Origin: Dermatophagoides farinae
Lineage: Eukaryota; Arthropoda; Arachnida; Sarcoptiformes; Pyroglyphidae
Assembly (NCBI RefSeq): GCF_024713945.1
Contig: NC_134681.1
Span: forward strand, 2,771,001-2,835,000
Direction: 5' to 3'
DNA length: 64,000 nucleotides
Shown piece by piece: positions 47,990-64,000 of the stretch; the stretch's first letter is position 1, and each line of letters begins with the position of its first letter. The notes beneath the pieces were generated by a model. The model saw only the letters and a program-made list of their open reading frames with translations, had not been told where the DNA came from and ran no database searches. The translations under genes were made by a program, and so were the position numbers.

Positions 47990-49365
47990 CACTGTGGTGA
48001 ATGAATGGACATTTAATTAAAAATGAAAGTTTGGTTTGTTTTCTTACCTGGTTCTGTTAAAAGATGGTACAAGTATTTTCTGGATTCAACACTTGAGCAA
48101 AAAATTGAGCACATGGATGTATTGTAAAAAAAAAACAAAACAATTTTGGCAACTCAATGAAAGACCGATAGATGGCATTAGTGACAAAGATGATGCGTTT
48201 TTTATGAATGAACCTCTTCTGAGCTGTTTCTCGCTCAGAAGAGAAGGATGTGGTGTATTTTTGCTTTTGTGCATGCATTGAATGCGTGAGTAACTTGTGA
48301 CTCATTCGTGATCCATGGTTTGGAGCACGTGTTTTTTGACTTGATAAAAATGCGTTTTCACCAATTGATTTTTTTGTTTTTCATTTTGATATTATTCTCT
48401 GTGATGATGATATATATCAAGTCGAATCAAACAAATTTTTATTTTCATTTTTAATTTTATTTCATGTTAAATCGCACCATCACTGAAATTATACGAAAAT
48501 GTTGATTCATAAACGTGAGTTGCCTTTCCCTTTTATTCTTTTCTTTTTTCAAGTTTCTATCAGAAATGGGTTTTGGTTGAATTTGATTTTTGATACCTCA
48601 AAAAAACCCATGTTGTTTTTGTAATTTGTAATTATTGTTTTGTGGTTTTAATTTTAATTTAATTTATTAATTAATATTAATAATTAATATTATGGTAATG
48701 TTCCGATTGTAATAAAGCATTGTCTTAATCACACTGGCTCATGCACACTTCTTGATCTAAGTTGTGTTTGATGTTGATGTGTGTGCACAGAGAATTTTTA
48801 TTTTTATTAATTTCACACACCACACGGACACATTTCACATTTTATTTAATGTTATATTTTATTTTATAACTATTTATTATTTATTATTTATTACTATTTA
48901 TTACTATTATTATATTATTATACCAGCCTGGTACATACGCTACGCGCCTGTCCAGACTGGCCCTGCGGGGCTGACTAATTGACGGTCATCTATTTGATGC
49001 AAAAGCTGCATCAACGCGCAAAGCTAAAACAATTTTTAAAAGAAAGAGCATCAAAGCTACATCTCACCACTTCAGAAACTTTTTACCGACAGATGGCGCT
49101 GAAAGCATTCTCAAAAAGCACTCCTTAAAGGCATTCCCTACTGTTGGATGTATACACACAGACACTAATCACCTTACTCTTTTATATAAAGTAAGTATGG
49201 TGATTATTATATTATTTTATATTTGTTATCCATTGTGTCCTTTTTCCCTGATCGATTTGTATATTTTTGGATGCCCTGGTTGGCCATTGCCTAACTGTTT
49301 GGAAAGAATGAAAAATTTGTTTCAAATTTGTCATATCAACTAACAAGTTAACCAGTCAATAATTA
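47990..49365. other. Transition region with unusual GC-rich patch
   Basis: Mostly AT-rich noncoding DNA, extremely A/T from 48.34 to 48.92 kb. A short GC-rich patch at about 48923-48990 stands out from its flanks, and 49.0-49.2 kb has locally distinct composition. A segment at 48194-48312 resembles one at 54151-54218. This marks the change from ordinary gene-bearing DNA to the repeat-rich half. No gene is supported. Confidence 0.5.
48194..48312 (+). repeat. Dispersed repeat, copy 1
   Basis: Shares an ordered series of words with 54151-54218: a GTTT.TTATGAA block, CTTCT.AG.TGTTTCTC, and GAGTAA.TTGTGACTCATT.GTGA. The second copy lacks about 50 bp of the middle. This is a diverged duplication within the subtelomere-like half. 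Confidence 0.55.
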
Positions 49366-49614
49366 AGTAGTACGACGATCAGCCAAAAATCAATCACTGA
49401 TGAAACAATTTCACCAGTTTATTGTATGGATCTTACTGAAAATATTGTGATTGATTCACAATATTTTTGTAATGCATTTCGGTTCTTGAACCATTCTTGT
49501 TTACCGAATACTTCGTCTAGTTTATGGTCGGTTAATGGCCACTGGCGAATAGCTATATGTGCTGAACGTGTTATTAGTGAAGAACTTACAAAATTTTGTT
49601 TTGGTCTTGAATGA
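49366..49614 (+). pseudogene. Degenerate SET-domain fragment (ASH1-like)
   Basis: An isolated open stretch of about 82 codons, also readable from an ATG at 49426. It encodes the post-core part of a SET methyltransferase domain: IVIDS, then RFLNHSCLPN, then WSVNGHWRIAICA and EELT. ASH1-type enzymes read similarly (IDS...RFINHSC.PN...WSVNG...ELTYDY). The RF-NHSC S-adenosylmethionine-binding and pseudoknot motif is intact, but the region where the family has its catalytic tyrosine (YDYNF) reads KFCFG. There is no upstream SET half, pre-SET or post-SET cysteine cluster nearby. It is best read as a relic of a duplicated or retrocopied methyltransferase gene, sitting 0.6 kb from a viral relic. Confidence 0.65.
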
Positions 49615-50175
49615 AGTTTTGGTCTTGAAAAAAATTTTAAAATTGTAAACAACTCGTTATTAAGGTTAACAACCAGAATTATTCCTTTTCTGTATTACTC
49701 AAGGTCAGAATAGATTGCATCAAATTGCAATTTGGAATCTATTTACTTAAATTAAATGCGTCTGTATTCAAATTTTTTGAAAAAAGATTAGGATAAGATA
49801 GAAAACTTTATTCTTTTTGAAATCATGTCGTATGTAAAACGGGCTTGTTTTAGAGAATTTTTCATTATTTTTCGCCATTATATAGGGGTGGTTTTTCAAA
49901 TTTTTTTTTTTTGAAAATTTTTTTTTTAAATTGATTATAATTGTAAGTTATGACACTTGATGACCTTTTTTCTTCTATCTTTTCTTTTTTAATTCCGTCG
50001 TTTCTAATTTGTTTTTTTGTTTTCTTTTTTTGTGTTTTATATTATTCAAATGATGACTTTTCACAGGAAAAAAATGGCTGATCAAGAAAATGTTTAAGTA
50101 TTTTAGTAGGCAATTTCGTTTAACCCTAAAGTTTGCCTACATTGCTCTGCCTCCTAACGTATTACCCCCCAAACT
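49615..50175. other. AT-rich spacer
   Basis: Spacer between the SET relic and the viral relic, with T-rich runs at 49.89-50.03 kb. The last 80 bp may already belong to the viral insertion, whose left boundary I cannot fix. Confidence 0.45.
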
Positions 50176-51333
50176 TTGGCTCTGTGTGCATATAAGAGAA
50201 ACCCATCTGTGTTACATACCAATTCGTATCCTAATCATCAACAGACATTGTCGCAAACACTTTTATGTGTGAATGAACGAAACTGGAACGTTCCGAAACT
50301 CCAATCGAACGTTTGTAAAGAAGTTTATGCAACCGTAAATTTTGATAAATTTATGAAGGCATATTGCGTAGATAAATACGACGACATATTGTCGTGTTAC
50401 GAAGATTGTCCAGTCGAGTTCACGCAACAATACCTCAACGAGTGGATATCAAAGATTCCGAACGACAAACGGACAAAGTACATGAATGCCGACCTATTGA
50501 TCTGTAATATGCGTGAGTTTTATTACACGGCCACCTTGAAAGGTGTGAATAAGGCTACTGGCGAATCTACAATTGGTACCAAAGTGCCGAAGGGCCAGGT
50601 TATTAATGCGATGCCAGAGTCAGTGTGTTTGTATTATTCACTTGTTATGAGAGACGCAATTGATCGAATTCGTGCTATGTTGCGACCAAATGTTTTACTT
50701 GCAATTGGTTTTAACGATGATTACATCAATATATTGGGTTAATTTTTATGTACAGCCACAGTGTGAGTATAATTATTATGAGTGCGATTTCAGTGCTTTT
50801 GACAAGTCAATCTCGTCACCGCACCTATCACTTTCCTATATCTGATGAAGCGGGTCGGATTTAGTGATGAACTTATCAATTTTTGGGAATTTACTCATAA
50901 TTATTATACACTTAGTCGTTGCCATCAAGGCGCTTCGTGGTATGTTGGTTTTCAAACAAAATCTGGCGATCCTGCCACCGCATTTTCGAACACAATATTT
51001 AATATGACTGCTCTTGCAGATTTAGTACTCAAGACAAAACCCGAGTGTTCTATGTTTATGGGTGATGACTCACTTATTATATCGAAGTATTCGATTGATG
51101 TGTCGAGTTTTGACTATGATATTGGTTGTAGTCATGGGTTTATTGCTAAATTAATCAAACCTAAAGTTGGACAGTTTTGTGGTTTATATCTTGTACCAAT
51201 GTATGACAAGTTTTTGTTTATAACAGATGTTGTCAAAAGATTCGAAAAACTTGGTTGTCAAGATAACCCTGAAGTGCTAATATTAGCAGAAAATTTTTTT
51301 AGCTTACAGGTGATAAGAAAAATGTGTTTTTAA
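50176..51333 (+). pseudogene. Endogenous viral element: alphavirus-supergroup RdRp fragment, frameshifted
   Basis: A genomic copy of the RNA-dependent RNA polymerase core of an alpha-like (RdRP_2 type) positive-strand RNA virus. The ordered signature is an upstream PNHQQTL/VNERN segment, TKVPKGQ, motif A (DFSAFDKS, near 50789), motif B (SGDPATAFSNTIFN, near 50965) and motif C with the GDD triad (near 51062). Reading frame breaks twice: the first part is in frame 1 to a stop at 50740-50742, motif A lies in frame 2 and ends at a TGA near 50845, and motifs B and C return to frame 1. It is therefore a non-functional relic, though otherwise well conserved, suggesting no great age. Virga-, nege- and kita-like viruses share these motifs; I cannot say which is nearest. 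No capsid, helicase or methyltransferase domain is visible. Confidence 0.88.
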
Positions 51334-51489
51334 TAAAAATTGCATTTATTGATGTGACAAATTTTGATACAATTAGTAAAGGAAAAATTTTCATTTATAT
51401 AGATTTAAAAATATACTAGAAGTTTCTAGAGACCTCTAGTTTACAATCATAGTTCATTATACAGCTGATGTTTTCTTTTTCAACAACAG

Positions 51490-51624
51490 GACAGAACGAA
51501 ATCAATACAGTCATTGGAAACATCAATTGCACTCGCTGAGTGCATTCAAAAACGTTATAATAGTTCGATTACACCATTTAATATTGTATGGTTTATTTCT
51601 TTTGTTTCATCGAATTTTTGTTGA
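51490..51624 (+). pseudogene. Possible C-terminal continuation of the viral relic after an intron-like gap
   Basis: A 44-codon open stretch followed by a TGA, beginning just after a TTCAACAACAG sequence. It is helical and charged, like the C-terminal end of alpha-like polymerases. It is separated from the end of the main relic (51309) by 180 bp with GT...AG ends that would join in phase 0. The gap may be a later insertion or a sequence now read as an intron. The assignment is tentative because no motif is diagnostic here. Confidence 0.35.
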
Positions 51625-52086
51625 ACTACGATGCGCATGTTCTATTTTAGTCATTGGCTCTGTGTCATTTAAACTTTTGTCTTTTCTAAATTTTGTTTGT
51701 ATTTTTCATCTCATTTAAAGACACGTGTTAATTTTTCATTATTCATTATTATTTTTTCTGTGGTGAAAATCATTTTTGATAATAAACCTTTGTTTATTGA
51801 TTTTTTTTCGGCTGAAGTTTATGTCTGTGTATTGTTTGTTTCTTTTCTGTATCGTAAAATTTCGTATCAATACAAATTTTTCTTTATTTTTGCAACTTTA
51901 TAAAATTAATTATTTTTCCAATGAAGAATCTTTGGACCTATTAAATGCAGCACGTGATCGGCTGATGTCCAAGATTGCAGGTGTCAGTATCTAATTTAGC
52001 GAGCCATAGGTTCGAGGTTTTCTCTCAATCTTTCCTCGATTAAATCGCGTAGATTGTTCTGCACTTGCTTGAGTTGAATTTTCTTT
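51625..52086. other. AT-rich spacer after the viral relic
   Basis: T-rich DNA with short hydrophobic frames of no family character. A 24-codon stretch ending at 51994 (NEESLDLLNAARDRLMSKIA) looks protein-like but is too short to assign. Confidence 0.4.
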
Positions 52087-52264
52087 AAAAAAAAAACCTA
52101 ACCTACCTCGCTCGTGAGGTTTTGCTCGAATATCGCTGCAAATGGCCAACCAACAAAACACAATAAAAAGCATCAAGAAGTTCATAGCAAAATAATTTGG
52201 AATCACAAAAACAAACAAAAAAGTAAACAATTGGTGTGTGATGACTATTGTTACACAAGTGTAC
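52087..52264 (-). repeat. Subtelomeric module, inverted and shortened copy
   Basis: On the minus strand this reads, in order, a 133-bp segment (52264-52132) matching 55760-55892, the start of the hairpin repeat seen at 56470 (TCGAGCAAAACCTCACGAGCG), a GGTAGGTTAGG telomere-like stub (52107-52097) and a T10 run (52096-52087 on the minus strand). The plus-strand region 55760-56950 has the same order over 1.2 kb. It is thus an inverted, internally deleted duplicate of the DNA next to the telomere repeats. Confidence 0.8.
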
Positions 52265-54150
52265 ATGATTGATATTCCATACCAGACTAGGAAATAAAAA
52301 CAAGAAGTAAAATCATCAACAACAACACGAATCAACATATCACAGATAAATATTGGCCATGGGAATCTCCAATAGGACGATCATCACCAGTGCAACGGTT
52401 GACGATAATCGATATTCCGGACCTGGCAGGATAAAAAATAAAATCGACAAGTTAAAAGCAACAATCATCATGTACGATACGCACCACCAGCAAATCAATC
52501 GCCGTGTTTGCGTCTTCTTGGAATCATTTTTTTTTACGATCAATACAATTGAATGAATAATTGATTGGAATCAAATCCGACTATCAACAAACAACAACAC
52601 ACCAAAAATGAGCAGAAAACAAACTTGGTCAAAAACAACAACTTGACATCGACTCATTCATGTACAAATAGTAAGTCAAAATGATGAACACAAATCGACC
52701 ATAACAAATACACAACACAAATAGATGTATTTTTCACTGTCAACAAAACACACGTATGTACAATCGACAAATAGTTTTACCGCCAAATTCGAGCCACCAA
52801 TCAGATCAATAGCAAAAATGTCATTGCAACGTAAAAACTACGTTTAGCGATCGTACTTTACAACAAATACACATGGATTGACTTTGAACATTATGAACAG
52901 CCAATAGATTTCATTTTTCGTAGTTTTTCCCCCTCTGATGATCAAAAAGCATTACGAATAGTATAACGAAACGATTTCTTAAAAGTATATAAGTCTTGAA
53001 AAATTTTCAGATCATCAGTTTTCGCAGCCTAGTTATATAGATATGCTGTCAGAAACATCGACAACCAACAACAAATCAATCATCGATCACAATTTTTCAT
53101 TTCATTCCATTTTTATTATTGTGATCATAAACACACGAAATCTTCTGTTTATGAACGAACACGAACAGACACACACACATTCCAACCGCATACACACACA
53201 CACATATTGGCCTCAGCCAACACACCAGACTCCATTCTATTCATTCTATTCCATTGGACACATACACAAACACTGGACACAATCTAAATTAGTTGAAATG
53301 TATCTTTATTTTATATATTTTTTTATTCTTTGTTAGATTTTCTTCTTTATTTTATTATTCAAAATGGCAATACAAATCAGCCAGAAAAAATGAAGTCAAT
53401 CGATGGGAAAAAAACCAACTAAAACCATTACACAACGTCGCTCATAAAATTTTTAAAAACAAAAAAACTTGTCGATTCAAAGTTTGATTGTTTGATCATG
53501 TTAAAAATATTGTGGATATAACGTTACATCTGAATAAGATTTAGAACTTTGAGCAACAACGTGTTTTTTTGTTGTATTGATTTTTTTGTGTTATGATTAA
53601 AAAATTTCTTTCTTGATTATTAAAAAATAAAACCATTTTTAAACGTGATTATTATCTCCTGATCCTTAACAGATCAAGTTATACTGGGTGATCAAACATT
53701 CGAATTTTAATTTTATCCACCGAATAACACACAACACATTCGATTGATTACCATCAAGAATTATTTCAAGAATCATCAATTGATAAAAAAAAAATTGTCT
53801 TTAAGAATTAAATAATCATCATTATTTTATTATTATTATTCTAAAATGGTATGTTGTATCTGCATTCACATTCTCGATTACTTTTTCCAAATCGATTATC
53901 GATTGCTATTTTTTCCATCATTCACTAGTGACTAGTCCAAACGCAAACTATCACCACCACCAGCAGCAGAACAAATGGAAATTATTAATAGAACTTGGTG
54001 TTATAATGACATGATATGAACATGATCATAACACAAAGGCATGGTTATGTAGTCATCATAAGATCACCATAACATCAGCATAATATCAACATGATAAGTT
54101 GACCATAATATGGTTAATTACAACACAGATCATCCATCCTGTGGGAAAAG
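52265..54150. other. Noncoding subtelomere-like region
   Basis: About 1.9 kb with CA-rich simple sequence (53.16-53.22 kb) and irregular CATAA/CATGATAA-type repeats at 54.0-54.12 kb. On the minus strand two acceptor-like TCCTGCCAG and TTTCCTAG sites (near 52.42 and 52.29 kb) precede hydrophobic open stretches. These could be relic exons of a membrane protein, but I cannot identify one. Confidence 0.4.
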
Positions 54151-56586: not shown

Positions 56587-56914
56587 AGGTTATCCAGGTT
56601 AGGTTGAATAGGTTTTTAGGTTAGGCCATCATCTGATAGGTGAGACCAGATAGGTTACAGGTAAGTATCCGGAACTGGTTCTGTACAGGTTAGGCAATGA
56701 CAAGTAGTTGGTTGGTCCTTTATGGTTCATTTCGTTTTTTAGGTTAGGTTAGGTAGGTTAGGCTGCTTTAGGATAGGTTGTTATGGCCACCAATAGTCAC
56801 GGTGAAGGATCTCAATACAATCGGTTAGGTTAGGTTAGGTCGATGGTAGAGAATGGTTAAAAAAAAAAAGGTTTTAGGTTAGGTTAGGTTGGTTAGGTTA
56901 GGTTAGGTTAGGTT

Positions 56915-56917
<3 letters not shown>
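56587..56917 (+). repeat. Degenerate (TTAGG)n telomere-repeat array
   Basis: TTAGG and GGTTA units interspersed with unique DNA, becoming purer rightward: clusters at about 56738-56762, 56822-56840 and 56872-56917, the last an almost perfect array. TTAGG is the standard arthropod telomere unit. With the G-rich strand on +, the polarity is that of a chromosome's right-hand end, the genes at 1-48 kb being internal. The array is abruptly ended by a poly(T) run belonging to a retrotransposon. Confidence 0.9.

Positions 56918-56950
<33 letters not shown>
56918..56950 (-). other. Poly(A) tail of the retrotransposon (poly(T) on +)
   Basis: 33 consecutive T on the plus strand, joining TTAGG repeats on the left to the element's 3' UTR on the right; an AATAAA lies 14 bp inside on the minus strand. 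This defines the element's 3' end and its insertion junction. Confidence 0.85.
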
Positions 56951-56952
<2 letters not shown>

Positions 56953-57338
56953 TATAAAAGAAATTTTATTATCAATACGCCAGGATTGGCAATGGCCAAC
57001 CAATATGTTATCAATTACAATTCATGAAAATCATTAAACAATTCATATCATATAAAAAAGAGAAGAAAAAATAACAAAAATAAAATAATAATAAAGAAAA
57101 ATAGGCATTTTCATGTAAAAAAAACTCCACTTGTTCCGGTATTGATTCAGTTTCCATTTTTTCGATCGGCAGTTTGGTTGATTATATTTAAGTATGGGGA
57201 GAATAATCATTCGTACATTATCGGCAATGCCATCATGAATCGGCATTTTGACGGTGATGGTGGTGATATGATGATGGTTACAGCTGGAAAGATTGACAAT
57301 GGTGGCGGATCAATTTTGGCGATATTTTGTTGTTGTTG

Positions 57339-58321
57339 TTGTCGTCGATGGTGTTGATGATGGTGATGATGAAAGATGGCCACAAGGGCTATAGCACAAT
57401 TCGGTGGTAAGTGTCACAACGCTGTGGCAACAGGTTGGCACGGATAATAATGGTCACAGAAGCGGTGGTTGGATCGAGAAAACGACACATGCATTGATAT
57501 CACAAATGGTCGATATTGTCACAGATTGCGGTGATGATAACCAATATCGGATAAGAAATGTTGGATTGACGATGATTGGTGATGATAATGATGATGTTGG
57601 TCAAGGGAAATTCACAAGATGATGATGGTTGATGGTGATGATATGACATGTATCAGCACCAGATTCGAAACACGGATTTTCACAGGAATAATGTCACAAC
57701 ATTGGTAACCAATGCTGGCACAGGCAAAAATCGTGATCATAAACAGTTTGTTGAAAATAATAAAGAAAAAATCACAGAACATAACACAACTACAATTATC
57801 ATTCGCTAGTTGAGATTAGGTCCAGTAAAACACAATGTCTGTTGCTTTGATGGTTGCTTTTATATGGTTTGTTTATGTTTCTCGAAATTTCTCGATGTTG
57901 TTGGTTGTGCTCAATTAATGGTCGAGCATGATGATGATGAACGATGAGCAACTGGTTACATTGGTTTATGCCGCTACCATCAACTGGTATTGGTCGTTGT
58001 TGCTCATGGCTGCTACTATTGATGACTATGGTTGGCAATGTTGATTCGACAATCAATACTCGCTACTATACAAATGGATGAGCTATCTTCGGCTATATCG
58101 ATTGAGCGTCGACCAACAGTCGACTATTTCATTTGTTTATATTGACAATAAATTAAATCTGCAATTATCAACTCGATTCCGATTCTTCGGTATACGATCC
58201 ATGGATTTGACCTGTTGAATTTCATCTGTTGAATACCACTTGTTGCCCATGATGACTTTTAATGTGTGTAAGTGTTTGTGTTTTATGTTTGTGTTTTAAT
58301 GTGTTTTATGTTTTTATTATA
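57339..58321. repeat. Outer palindrome arm, left
   Basis: Reverse-complement match to 63010-63992 (position x pairs with 121331 minus x). The stretches compared, including two reading frames, show no mismatch, and a single-base gap appears at 57338. It lies in the element's 3' UTR. Confidence 0.9.
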
Positions 58322-59253
58322 GCAGTAACCAATTAGCTAGGATTTTCAAATTAATTTAACTTATCTGTGATAATATTTTGTTTCTATTGACATATTTATA
58401 ATTTTTCAATTGACTAGGATTTTCAAATCGACTATAATTAATAGACAATTAAAATTTTCAGATAAATCATCTGTGATAGATACTTATTTGTTCAACATCT
58501 GTGATTTAGGATTTTTCAATTTAGGATTAATAAATTAATGTTGACTATGGATTTTTCATTATTGACTATAAAATTTTTCAGATTTATGAATTGGTTACTA
58601 ATTACTAATTAATCATTTTATGGGTTTTAGATTTATCTGGTTAACGATATACGATTACCCAGCCAGATTTAAATAGGTAGAGAATGCCTATTTCAGCCCT
58701 ATTTGGTTACTGCCAACTATTGTGTGTAAATATTATGTGTATATGGTACAAATTGAATACATGTGTATATGTTTATTTTTGGAACATGAAGGTGTAAGAT
58801 CTGCAACCAATGGCGGCCATTTACGGTATGCCATCCAGAAGAGCCATGGTGCATCAATGAACAATATGTTTATGTGTATGGTATGAATTGTTTGTGTTGT
58901 TATCAATAAAATCGGCTGTTTTGACAACAGCAATAAAACAAAGGTAAAAATCAGCTGTGTTCTGTGTAAATGTGTATATTGTTCATGTGATTGATCGAAG
59001 GTAAGTAAATAATAAATAAATAAATTGGTACCTATAGTGTATAGTGCAAGATCTGCAGCCAATGGCGGCCATTTACGGTATGCCATCCAGAAAAGCCATG
59101 GCGCATCAATGAACAATATCTGTGTATGGAATGTATGTATATGTGTTGTTATCAATAAAATCAGCTGTTATAACAGCAGAAATAAAACAAAAGTAAAAAT
59201 CAGCTGTGTCCTGTGTGAATGTGTATATTGTTCATGTGACTGATCGGAAAATA
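58322..59253 (-). repeat. Diverged middle of left arm, with two 252-bp tandem repeats
   Basis: Two units about 252 bp apart (about 58793-59044 and 59045-59270, the second running into the inner palindrome arm). They share blocks such as AGATCTGCA.CCAATGGCGGCC, GGTATGCCATCCAGAA.AGCCATGG and TGTTGTTATCAATAAAATC.G. The corresponding right-arm region (61988-63009) carries recognisable but strongly substituted versions. The rest (58322-58790) is AT-rich, with little likeness to the right arm. Confidence 0.75.
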
Positions 59254-59344
59254 AATAAATAAATAAATTAATAATGTGTATATATGTGTGTATTCAATGT
59301 GTGTAGTCATCATGGTTGGTGGCAAATTTGAATTGATGATAATC

Positions 59345-60634
59345 TTATCCATGGTCATTATCCGTTGTTGTGATTGATTGGCGATTATTACCACTGTGCA
59401 GATTTTTCCTGTATATGTCCACCAGCATAGCAATTTGTTCGTATAGAACAGCTGTGGCTCTAATTCGGTCAATTGGCTTCATAGCAGATTGTTGAGTCAA
59501 TAAATGATCGCGTCGAAGACGTTCCGATAGTGGACATTCATTTAGCATGTGTAAAACAGATTGATTTTGATTACCACATGGGCATTTAGCATCATCGATG
59601 AATCCGAATCTCTTCAGAAATTCCCCAAACTGTCCATGTCCTGTCAGTGTTTGGGTTAACCAGAAATTGTTAAATGGCCAAAATTTTCTTGCATCACCAA
59701 CGTTTGGGCATAATTTTTTAATCGTTGTGCCAAATTTATCACGATGATAATATCGGTTCCAGTTTATCAGGGCAGTTTTCATTTCCATCTTTTTGATTGT
59801 GGCCATTGGAATTTTTTCATAGTCAAATGTTTGTTTTAATCTGGCCGTCGACATTAGCATCTTTTTTAATTTAACTAATTTTCTATCGCTTCGATCCATT
59901 TTAACCCACGCAATGACCATGTTTGTTGGTGTTGATTCAATAATTTGTTTCGCCAGATTCGATACTTTACTGTGATTTTTCTTTTTAATATGGCTGATTG
60001 CACCTAGATTATTATTCAAAATTGTAATGGCCGCTTCGTTGCTATATTTTTCTTTACAAAAATCGATCGCTTTTGAAATCACAAACAGGTCAGCTTGCAA
60101 ATTAGAGCAATATGTAGGCAGCCGATAAGTTACAGTACCGATAAAATACGTTCCATTGAATAATTGGAACCCACATCCGATTCCATGTCTTGTTCGAATC
60201 GATTTTGTATACATTTGGTAGAATGTTCGCGTAAATGGTTGGCCGCAATAGATTCGTGGATAAGCATTAACATCAATCCTTGTTTCATCAGGTACATCGA
60301 CAACCAAACGATTTTCATTCATTTTATATTTTTTCTTGATTCTGGCCAAAGCTATATTTGCCTGTTTCATGATTTCCAAATGCAGTGGCAACATATCAGC
60401 AATTGCGGTGGTGGAGACAAATGCCGCGGATCGATATGATTTTGTTATCAGCTGGGCAATCGGCCTCTGGAACTGCCTCAGTTCCTTTTGTATAAACACA
60501 TAATTAATTGCTCGGTGCCATGCTGCGCACCCATAGGTAATAATTGGCACTATTATCGAATTGTATAATTGTTTAATAATCTTCGGCCCAAGGCCATACT
60601 TCGAGCGTGCGAAACCGATTAATCGGTTTCGCAC
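59345..60634 (-). pseudogene. Non-LTR retrotransposon RT C-terminus / RNase H-like / zinc knuckle (left copy)
   Basis: An intact 429-codon frame whose first five codons are artefacts of reading across the palindrome centre at 60620; the true N-terminal part of the polymerase is missing. It starts at the conserved post-RT segment (GLGPKIIKQLYNSIIVPIIT then YGCAAW). A degenerate RNase H-like region follows (LQADLFVISKAIDF, then NNNLGAI where active enzymes have an Asp), then LTGHGQFGEFLKRFG and a CPCG...HMLNECP zinc motif, the usual ending of R1-clade ORF2. The lack of stops implies recent activity of the parent element. There is no start codon of its own. Confidence 0.85.
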
Positions 60635-61896
60635 GCTCGAAGTATGGCCTTGGGCCGAAGATTATTAAACAATTATACAATTCGATAATAGTGCCAATTA
60701 TTACCTATGGGTGCGCAGCATGGCACCGAGCAATTAATTATGTGTTTATACAAAAGGAACTGAGGCAGTTCCAGAGGCCGATTGCCCAGCTGATAACAAA
60801 ATCATATCGATCCGCGGCATTTGTCTCCACCACCGCAATTGCTGATATGTTGCCACTGCATTTGGAAATCATGAAACAGGCAAATATAGCTTTGGCCAGA
60901 ATCAAGAAAAAATATAAAATGAATGAAAATCGTTTGGTTGTCGATGTACCTGATGAAACAAGGATTGATGTTAATGCTTATCCACGAATCTATTGCGGCC
61001 AACCATTTACGCGAACATTCTACCAAATGTATACAAAATCGATTCGAACAAGACATGGAATCGGATGTGGGTTCCAATTATTCAATGGAACGTATTTTAT
61101 CGGTACTGTAACTTATCGGCTGCCTACATATTGCTCTAATTTGCAAGCTGACCTGTTTGTGATTTCAAAAGCGATCGATTTTTGTAAAGAAAAATATAGC
61201 AACGAAGCGGCCATTACAATTTTGAATAATAATCTAGGTGCAATCAGCCATATTAAAAAGAAAAATCACAGTAAAGTATCGAATCTGGCGAAACAAATTA
61301 TTGAATCAACACCAACAAACATGGTCATTGCGTGGGTTAAAATGGATCGAAGCGATAGAAAATTAGTTAAATTAAAAAAGATGCTAATGTCGACGGCCAG
61401 ATTAAAACAAACATTTGACTATGAAAAAATTCCAATGGCCACAATCAAAAAGATGGAAATGAAAACTGCCCTGATAAACTGGAACCGATATTATCATCGT
61501 GATAAATTTGGCACAACGATTAAAAAATTATGCCCAAACGTTGGTGATGCAAGAAAATTTTGGCCATTTAACAATTTCTGGTTAACCCAAACACTGACAG
61601 GACATGGACAGTTTGGGGAATTTCTGAAGAGATTCGGATTCATCGATGATGCTAAATGCCCATGTGGTAATCAAAATCAATCTGTTTTACACATGCTAAA
61701 TGAATGTCCACTATCGGAACGTCTTCGACGCGATCATTTATTGACTCAACAATCTGCTATGAAGCCAATTGACCGAATTAGAGCCACAGCTGTTCTATAC
61801 GAACAAATTGCTATGCTGGTGGACATATACAGGAAAAATCTGCACAGTGGTAATAATCGCCAATCAATCACAACAACGGATAATGACCATGGATAA
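60607..61896 (+). pseudogene. Non-LTR retrotransposon RT C-terminus / RNase H-like / zinc knuckle (right copy)
   Basis: Identical in protein sequence to the left-copy frame and in inverse orientation; the first 14 bases again cross the palindrome centre. Same domain content: post-RT connector, degenerate RNase H-like region, LTGHG block and C-terminal zinc motif. It cannot be expressed as a full polymerase because no catalytic FADD-type RT core is present. Confidence 0.85.
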
Positions 61897-61987
61897 GATT
61901 ATCATCAATTCAAATTTGCCACCAACCATGATGACTACACACATTGAATACACACATATATACACATTATTAATTTATTTATTTATT

Positions 61988-63009
61988 CATCAATTCGATC
62001 AGTCACGTCATCAATAAACACATTCACATAATTTACAGCTGATTGAGTGTACTTTTGTGCCATTTGAGCTGTAATTTGAACTGAACAAAATGATAATCAA
62101 CTAGCCAATCGATGGATTTCATTCACCAATATTGTTCATTGATGCGCCATCGATTTATTTGATTTCATACCATAAATGAAAACAACTAGTCAACAGATCT
62201 TGCAGCAATCGATTCCATGTACCGCTGTGCCAATGTATTATTTATTTACCTTCGAACAATGAAACCAATAGCCAAACAGTATTGACACAGAACTGTGATC
62301 CATTAATTATCTACGTTTTATCATTGTTGTCGATTTACGAACCGAGAGTTCTGATCTTATGCTGTGATGATTCACACCATAAATTAAAAATGTTATTGTG
62401 ATTATTGATACATGATGAATCTAATGGATGGCATACCAAGATTTTGAAACATTGGTTGCAAATCCATTGTCCTTGTTTTTACCATAGTAAACAAAAATGT
62501 AAACATTGTATACGTCATCTATGAATTAACACAAACAAAATACACAAATCTGCTCATCACAATTCACTAGCAGCATTAATGTAAACACCACTGTATTGAA
62601 CATGCACATCCATTACCTACACAAGTCTGGCCAATTAAGTCGTACATAGTTTTAGCTGCTCACACATATACAACGGAAAATGTGCTCTAACTATGTGTGT
62701 AGTATTCAATCGAACACGCTGAACAACTTGATAGTTAATTTTGTTTGTTACATAGTCAACATCAACTTTGACATTACCATCATAAATTGATTTCTCAACA
62801 TCATCACCAGCAATATGTGTTCAATTCTGTGCCTCTATCAGATGATCAACACTGATTAATGATAATTGACTACAAAAGATTTTTTTTTTGTCTTGGCTAG
62901 TCATATATAAACAAAACTTTTTGTGTTGACAACTTGCTAGTCGAAATTTTCTTTGAGCAGAAGTCTGAAAATTTTCGTGTTTGTTTATGCTAAAAGTTTG
63001 TTTACATGG
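61988..63009 (+). repeat. Diverged middle of right arm
   Basis: Homologous in order to left-arm 58322-59253 but 90 bp longer and heavily substituted. Landmarks such as TATTGTTCATTGATGCGCCAT (near 62141), ACAGATCTTGCAGCAATCGAT and TGGATGGCATACC (near 62426) match the two left-arm repeat units. It represents a different subfamily or older copy of the same 3' UTR. Confidence 0.7.
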
Positions 63010-63992
63010 TATAATAAAAACATAAAACACATTAAAACACAAACATAAAACACAAACACTTACACACATTAAAAGTCATCATGGGCAACAAGTGGTATTC
63101 AACAGATGAAATTCAACAGGTCAAATCCATGGATCGTATACCGAAGAATCGGAATCGAGTTGATAATTGCAGATTTAATTTATTGTCAATATAAACAAAT
63201 GAAATAGTCGACTGTTGGTCGACGCTCAATCGATATAGCCGAAGATAGCTCATCCATTTGTATAGTAGCGAGTATTGATTGTCGAATCAACATTGCCAAC
63301 CATAGTCATCAATAGTAGCAGCCATGAGCAACAACGACCAATACCAGTTGATGGTAGCGGCATAAACCAATGTAACCAGTTGCTCATCGTTCATCATCAT
63401 CATGCTCGACCATTAATTGAGCACAACCAACAACATCGAGAAATTTCGAGAAACATAAACAAACCATATAAAAGCAACCATCAAAGCAACAGACATTGTG
63501 TTTTACTGGACCTAATCTCAACTAGCGAATGATAATTGTAGTTGTGTTATGTTCTGTGATTTTTTCTTTATTATTTTCAACAAACTGTTTATGATCACGA
63601 TTTTTGCCTGTGCCAGCATTGGTTACCAATGTTGTGACATTATTCCTGTGAAAATCCGTGTTTCGAATCTGGTGCTGATACATGTCATATCATCACCATC
63701 AACCATCATCATCTTGTGAATTTCCCTTGACCAACATCATCATTATCATCACCAATCATCGTCAATCCAACATTTCTTATCCGATATTGGTTATCATCAC
63801 CGCAATCTGTGACAATATCGACCATTTGTGATATCAATGCATGTGTCGTTTTCTCGATCCAACCACCGCTTCTGTGACCATTATTATCCGTGCCAACCTG
63901 TTGCCACAGCGTTGTGACACTTACCACCGAATTGTGCTATAGCCCTTGTGGCCATCTTTCATCATCACCATCATCAACACCATCGACGACAA
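63010..63992. repeat. Outer palindrome arm, right
   Basis: Reverse complement of 57339-58321. The match resumes on the far side of a one-base gap (a G at 57338 is missing here) and continues to the window edge at 64000. Confidence 0.9.
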
Positions 63993-64000
63993 AACAACAA

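Follow-up and report, generated by a model that had tools for sequence, protein, structure and literature searches.

Sequence evidence for a broken alphavirus-supergroup polymerase, interrupted by a Ty1/copia LTR, in a dust-mite chromosome

Non-retroviral endogenous viral elements in arthropods are generally known as partial, broken, single-copy viral genes lying among transposons. Positive-strand, alphavirus-like elements are less common than negative-strand ones, and in mosquitoes viral elements have been linked to piRNAs. The locus described here, from the dust mite Dermatophagoides farinae, is likewise partial, broken, present once and surrounded by transposons. In this study, we conclude that it is very probably a single-copy, non-functional endogenous viral element in a dust-mite chromosome, holding a broken polymerase of the alphavirus supergroup. 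An earlier note, made from the DNA letters, had proposed an endogenous polymerase of this supergroup, and the proposal stands on the matches to the RdRP_2 profile, on the host flanks and on a virus/LTR junction that recurs in a public protein record (P0001). New beyond that note are the nested copia LTR and the finding that a virus in the databases is probably misnamed.

The polymerase fossil and its chromosomal setting

The window, meaning the whole 64,000-nucleotide stretch of DNA that was analysed, is C5:2771001-2835000 of a 62.4-Mb genome in 22 contigs. Open stretches from a six-frame translation of the window were each searched separately against Pfam. Running the RdRP_2 (PF00978) check suggested by the earlier note, we found three co-linear pieces (Table 1) that match profile positions 31-200, 195-232 and 236-390 of 440. 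Pieces 1 and 3 score 66.1 and 112.9 bits, both above the curated cut-off of 27, and piece 2 taken alone reaches 17 bits, below it. The match of piece 1 starts at about 50206 and the RdRP_2 homology stops at 51309; pieces 1 and 3 had no match in an NCBIfam search. In translation, the residues that we take to be polymerase motifs A (DFSAFDKS) and B (SGDPATAFSNTIFN) fall at 50786-50809 and 50962-51003, with the GDD of presumed motif C at 51061-51069. The order A, B, C that had been noticed earlier is thus kept along the fossil and can be located precisely.

Table 1. Coordinates of the viral pieces, nested elements and candidate border features in the window
Feature	Position	Strand	Details
RdRp piece 1	50158..50739	+	194 open codons; frame-break stop at 50740; RdRP_2 E 3.6e-18
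RdRp piece 2, motif A region	50717..50833	+	other frame; in open stretch 50651-50842; RdRP_2 E 0.0028
RdRp piece 3, motif B and GDD	50842..51310	+	within open stretch 50803-51330; RdRP_2 E 2.3e-32
Ty1/copia solo LTR	51311..51485		TG..CA, 175 bp; perfect 5-bp duplication ACAGG on both sides
Unique open stretch, candidate RdRp C-terminal remnant	51487..51618	+	between the two elements
Second LTR-like element	51619..51874		TG..CA; AATTTT on both sides, A/T-rich and so weaker evidence than for the first element
Unique open stretch ending in TAA, candidate polymerase gene end	51875..51994	+	
Ten-A run then CCTAAC, weak candidate for poly(A) tail and flanking duplication	52087..52096	+	

Pieces 1 and 3 share a frame and piece 2 lies in a different one, which amounts to two compensating breaks, with the reading frame lost near 50740 and restored by about 50842. 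All five main-frame stops that precede the end stop (50740, 50764, 50770, 50779 and 50800) lie between the two breaks, in agreement with the paired breaks and stops described in the earlier note. Frame reading revealed no nonsense changes within pieces 1 and 3, which fits slow or recent decay, with past constraint still possible. The two frame breaks, the five stops and an LTR insertion have abolished the coding capacity of the fossil. In its present state no working polymerase can be made from it, because the catalytic motifs are split across frames.

The RdRP_2 profile matched at this one place in the whole 62.4-Mb genome and at none in 14 control genomes. In a DNA search of the genome with 48600-53000, the stretch 50153-51309 matched only itself (among 40 of the 102 candidates, which were scored); 50094-50152 matched one place on contig C7, and 51310-51485 matched several places. 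Host-repeated DNA is therefore close on both sides of the viral stretch, the join being known from the assembly and the sequence, and the same search places the fossil in a repeat-rich block. The window contains a P450 gene that shares 79% identity with a P450 of Dermatophagoides pteronyssinus and 81%, over 66% of the query, with one of Euroglyphus maynei, and this resemblance identifies the host as a pyroglyphid mite. The claim that the polymerase is embedded between host sequences is borne out by these flanking repeats, found elsewhere in the genome, and by the mite P450.

The surroundings contain further observations. A lone SET-domain fragment at 49363-49611 (E 1.2e-7) shares 70% identity with part of an open frame of 305 codons at C5:4786688-4786894 and is perhaps a decayed gene copy. 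On the other side, the repeats in 52132-53000 are shared with sequence near both ends of C7 and with C1, C2 and C6, and an interstitial TTAGG array of 9.4 copies lies at 56874-56919. Together, these repeats and the array resemble a subtelomere-like block inside C5.

Nested retroelements and the borders of the insert

An LTR element has inserted into the viral fossil. The solo LTR, with its target duplication (Table 1), starts where the RdRP_2 homology ends, and the polymerase end of 51333 given in the earlier note is 23 bases too far for the virus stretch, since host LTR sequence runs from 51311. Both ends are present in six of the eight sequences examined, and four of those six carry perfect 5-bp duplications; the remaining two are the paired LTRs of a single full element at C4:1733654-1738024, 99.5% identical to each other. 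That locus is a full-length Ty1/copia element with a 1300-codon open gag-pol frame, its 1300-aa product containing RVT_2, rve (integrase) and copia gag domains, and it was possibly active recently.

The second LTR-like element has copies, 98% identical, at two places on C7, where the flanks are shared and CTAATC stands on both sides, as well as a partial copy (93%) on C10. It was probably inserted into the fossil too, if the stretches beyond the first LTR are viral. The open stretch between the two elements is unique in the genome (four of four candidates scored), the one after the second element has no second genomic match, and neither, taken by itself, matched anything in Pfam or PDB. The two may represent the rest of the polymerase C-terminus, which would take the gene to about 51994. 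The DNA at 51995-52131 has no other genomic match, and known host repeat resumes by 52111. The short unique open stretches and the poly(A) run at 52087 suggest that the fossil extends to about 52096.

The left border of the viral stretch lies between about 50153 and 50206. The 6-mer that follows the A run on the right, CCTAAC, also occurs at 50153-50158, where the C7 match ends and the frame of piece 1 opens. When narrower zones were compared, two 6-mers turned up in both, and a 6-bp word is not beyond chance by its length, so that position alone favours it; with 51990-52160 as the right zone, no word of 7 or more is shared with the left border. A poly(A) run with a flanking 6-mer, as LINE-type copying would leave, is a weak candidate signature of the viral insert. 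Another candidate for the viral target duplication, a 12-bp word present at both 50176 and 51654, was rejected: its right-hand occurrence falls within the LTR-like element, and at three other loci it is joined to that element without a break. Among random pairs of zones drawn from the window, 1.25% have a word of 12 or more in common.

Public relatives and placement of the virus

A protein search with piece 3 yielded 20 candidates, one of which passed: P0001, identical at 161 of 162 residues and encoded on a 1307-base contig. Its last residues are LTR-encoded, hence the virus/LTR junction exists in a second public contig, and this reading of the RdRp into the LTR argues against misassembly. 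The single residue that differs from piece 3 is counted against our preferred explanation.

The search with piece 1 passed two of 27 candidates, P0002 and P0003. P0002 is the RNA-dependent RNA polymerase of Hattiesburg toga-like virus (taxid 2789616), a record filed under unclassified Togaviridae. Over its length it is identical to piece 1 at 128 of 129 residues and ends at the same frame-break stop, although it is filed as exogenous, unlike the chromosomal locus of the fossil. Because of this identity and this shared end, 'Hattiesburg toga-like virus' is most likely the dust-mite fossil itself. The six remaining viruses in the range of taxids 2789613-2789619 are likewise named after places, which suggests that the series came from one data-mining study. 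The name of the Hattiesburg virus was found in no paper of the PMC open-licence collection. The group behind the D. farinae small-RNA paper reportedly works in Hattiesburg; the word does not occur in the text of the paper that was searched. The same group deposited a D. farinae DNA assembly (PMC5805368), and for this reason the Hattiesburg record alone is no proof that the fossil is transcribed.

P0003 is an unnamed protein of 192 aa, encoded on a public contig of 1538 bases. Like the fossil, it carries the piece 1 region (93 of 110 residues identical) and continues through motif A, with 27 of 33 residues identical in the piece 2 region. Unlike the fossil, it is open across the break and then passes into an unrelated lysine/asparagine-rich end. 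It had only an insignificant match in NCBIfam, and a tblastn search of viral contigs found no relative of the fossil. Ten of the 17 differences between P0003 and piece 1 are conservative (null 0.347, P = 0.036), a weak measure from which we draw no reading of selection, because the P450 gene compared with three mites in the same way gave 0.37, 0.51 and 0.30.

At the level of sequence, the fossil is confirmed as an Alsuviricetes-type RdRp (Pfam RdRP_2), that is, of the alphavirus supergroup. Piece 3 also matches alphavirus nsP4 chains (PDB 7y38, 7f0s, 7vb4 and 7vw5; E 1.2e-4 to 1.3e-3), whose motif B and C regions align with the fossil, but these are very distant from it and support the supergroup only. 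Neither the nsP4 relatives nor the record filed under Togaviridae decides the family, including the virga/nege/kita type put forward in the earlier note. A methyltransferase profile had no match across the genome and none in the controls; the one helicase match, of 25.5 bits on C6, is unconvincing, the same profile matching nine of the 14 cellular controls. A gene order in which the polymerase comes last, ahead of a poly(A) tail, is more in keeping with a segmented, kita-like plan than with a togavirus plan. If the borders given above are right, the polymerase would have been the last gene before the poly(A), and we may speculate that the virus had such a segmented, kita-like plan.

Other viral profiles were also run across the genome. 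RdRP_1 matched three open frames, with lengths of 931, 1132 and 1473 aa; two of these matches pass the cut-off, and one of the 14 controls matched as well. The three are probably reverse transcriptases. RdRP_4 had no match in the genome or in any control. On the minus strand of C10, at about 1992458-1993242, there are two open pieces next to each other with matches to mononegavirus L polymerase (E 1.6e-6 and 4.4e-6; 26.6 and 25.2 bits against a cut-off of 27), in neighbouring regions of the L profile. A third piece there is without a match, and PDB L chains gave E 0.043. This is likely a second virus fossil.

Origin, alternatives and possible role

The history that best accommodates the locus would begin with infection of a dust-mite ancestor by a toga/virga/kita-like virus (Alsuviricetes, RdRP_2). 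Host retrotransposon enzymes would probably have made a DNA copy of its RNA, and this copy would have integrated in the germ line. Since then the integrated copy has lost its frame twice and received an LTR element, probably two. Any present role would putatively be that of a non-coding RNA or a source of siRNAs.

Two alternatives to such an inert fossil are barely credible in light of the evidence above. A circulating virus misassembled into the mite contig could account for a GenBank 'virus' with a near-identical protein, but the Hattiesburg record stops at the same frame break, P0001 carries its LTR-encoded tail on another contig, and an LTR with a target duplication sits directly within the viral sequence. 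It is just as hard to believe that the polymerase fragment was taken over by a host gene and serves as a protein. Open frames of 194 and 176 codons do remain in pieces 1 and 3; the catalytic palm motifs, however, are divided between two frames and the polymerase gene is interrupted by the LTR.

A role through RNA has to be weighed against what is reported of small RNAs in this species. D. farinae is reported to be without Piwi proteins and piRNAs, its transposons being silenced by Dicer siRNAs, many of which come from master loci containing transposon sequences (PMC5805368). The piRNA part of the earlier suggestion of small-RNA silencing is therefore unlikely to hold, and, for the same reason, siRNAs are the plausible small-RNA link. 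By analogy with the piRNA-linked elements of mosquitoes, the fossil might be expressed and useful as a feeder of Dicer siRNAs against related viruses, which we regard as unlikely. In its favour are the siRNA-producing master loci without piRNAs, the repeat-rich block that holds the fossil, the existence of the related virus-like sequence P0003, and a large inverted repeat whose outer arm starts at 57330, 5.3 kb past 51994. The fossil lies outside the inverted repeat, however, and is present as one copy only.

The inverted repeat is a locus in its own right. Its perfect arms, 59251-60620 and 60621-61990, adjoin each other without a spacer at 100% complementarity and lie within a 3.3-kb palindrome at 95% (58990-62260); further out, the stretches 57330-58332 and 62998-64000 form a pair at 99.6%. 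Each side also carries an identical open frame of 438 aa. The region 57330-64000 is either a real hairpin locus or an assembly artefact. That the fossil and its transposon block, near this hairpin-capable palindrome, form a heritable antiviral siRNA locus directed against toga/kita-like viruses of mites is quite unlikely; if true, integrated viral DNA would give an immune memory that works without Piwi.

Read as a single-copy, non-functional viral element, the locus points to infection of dust-mite ancestors by a virus of the alphavirus supergroup. A further suggestion is that the public taxonomy lists at least one virus species that is really a chromosomal fossil, and a misnamed fossil of this kind calls for caution when viruses are sought in public read sets. 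In addition, the locus provides a place to ask whether an animal lineage reported to be without piRNAs uses integrated viral DNA as an siRNA memory. It is in this respect that the dust-mite lineage, reported to be without piRNAs, differs from the setting of other arthropod endogenous viral elements.
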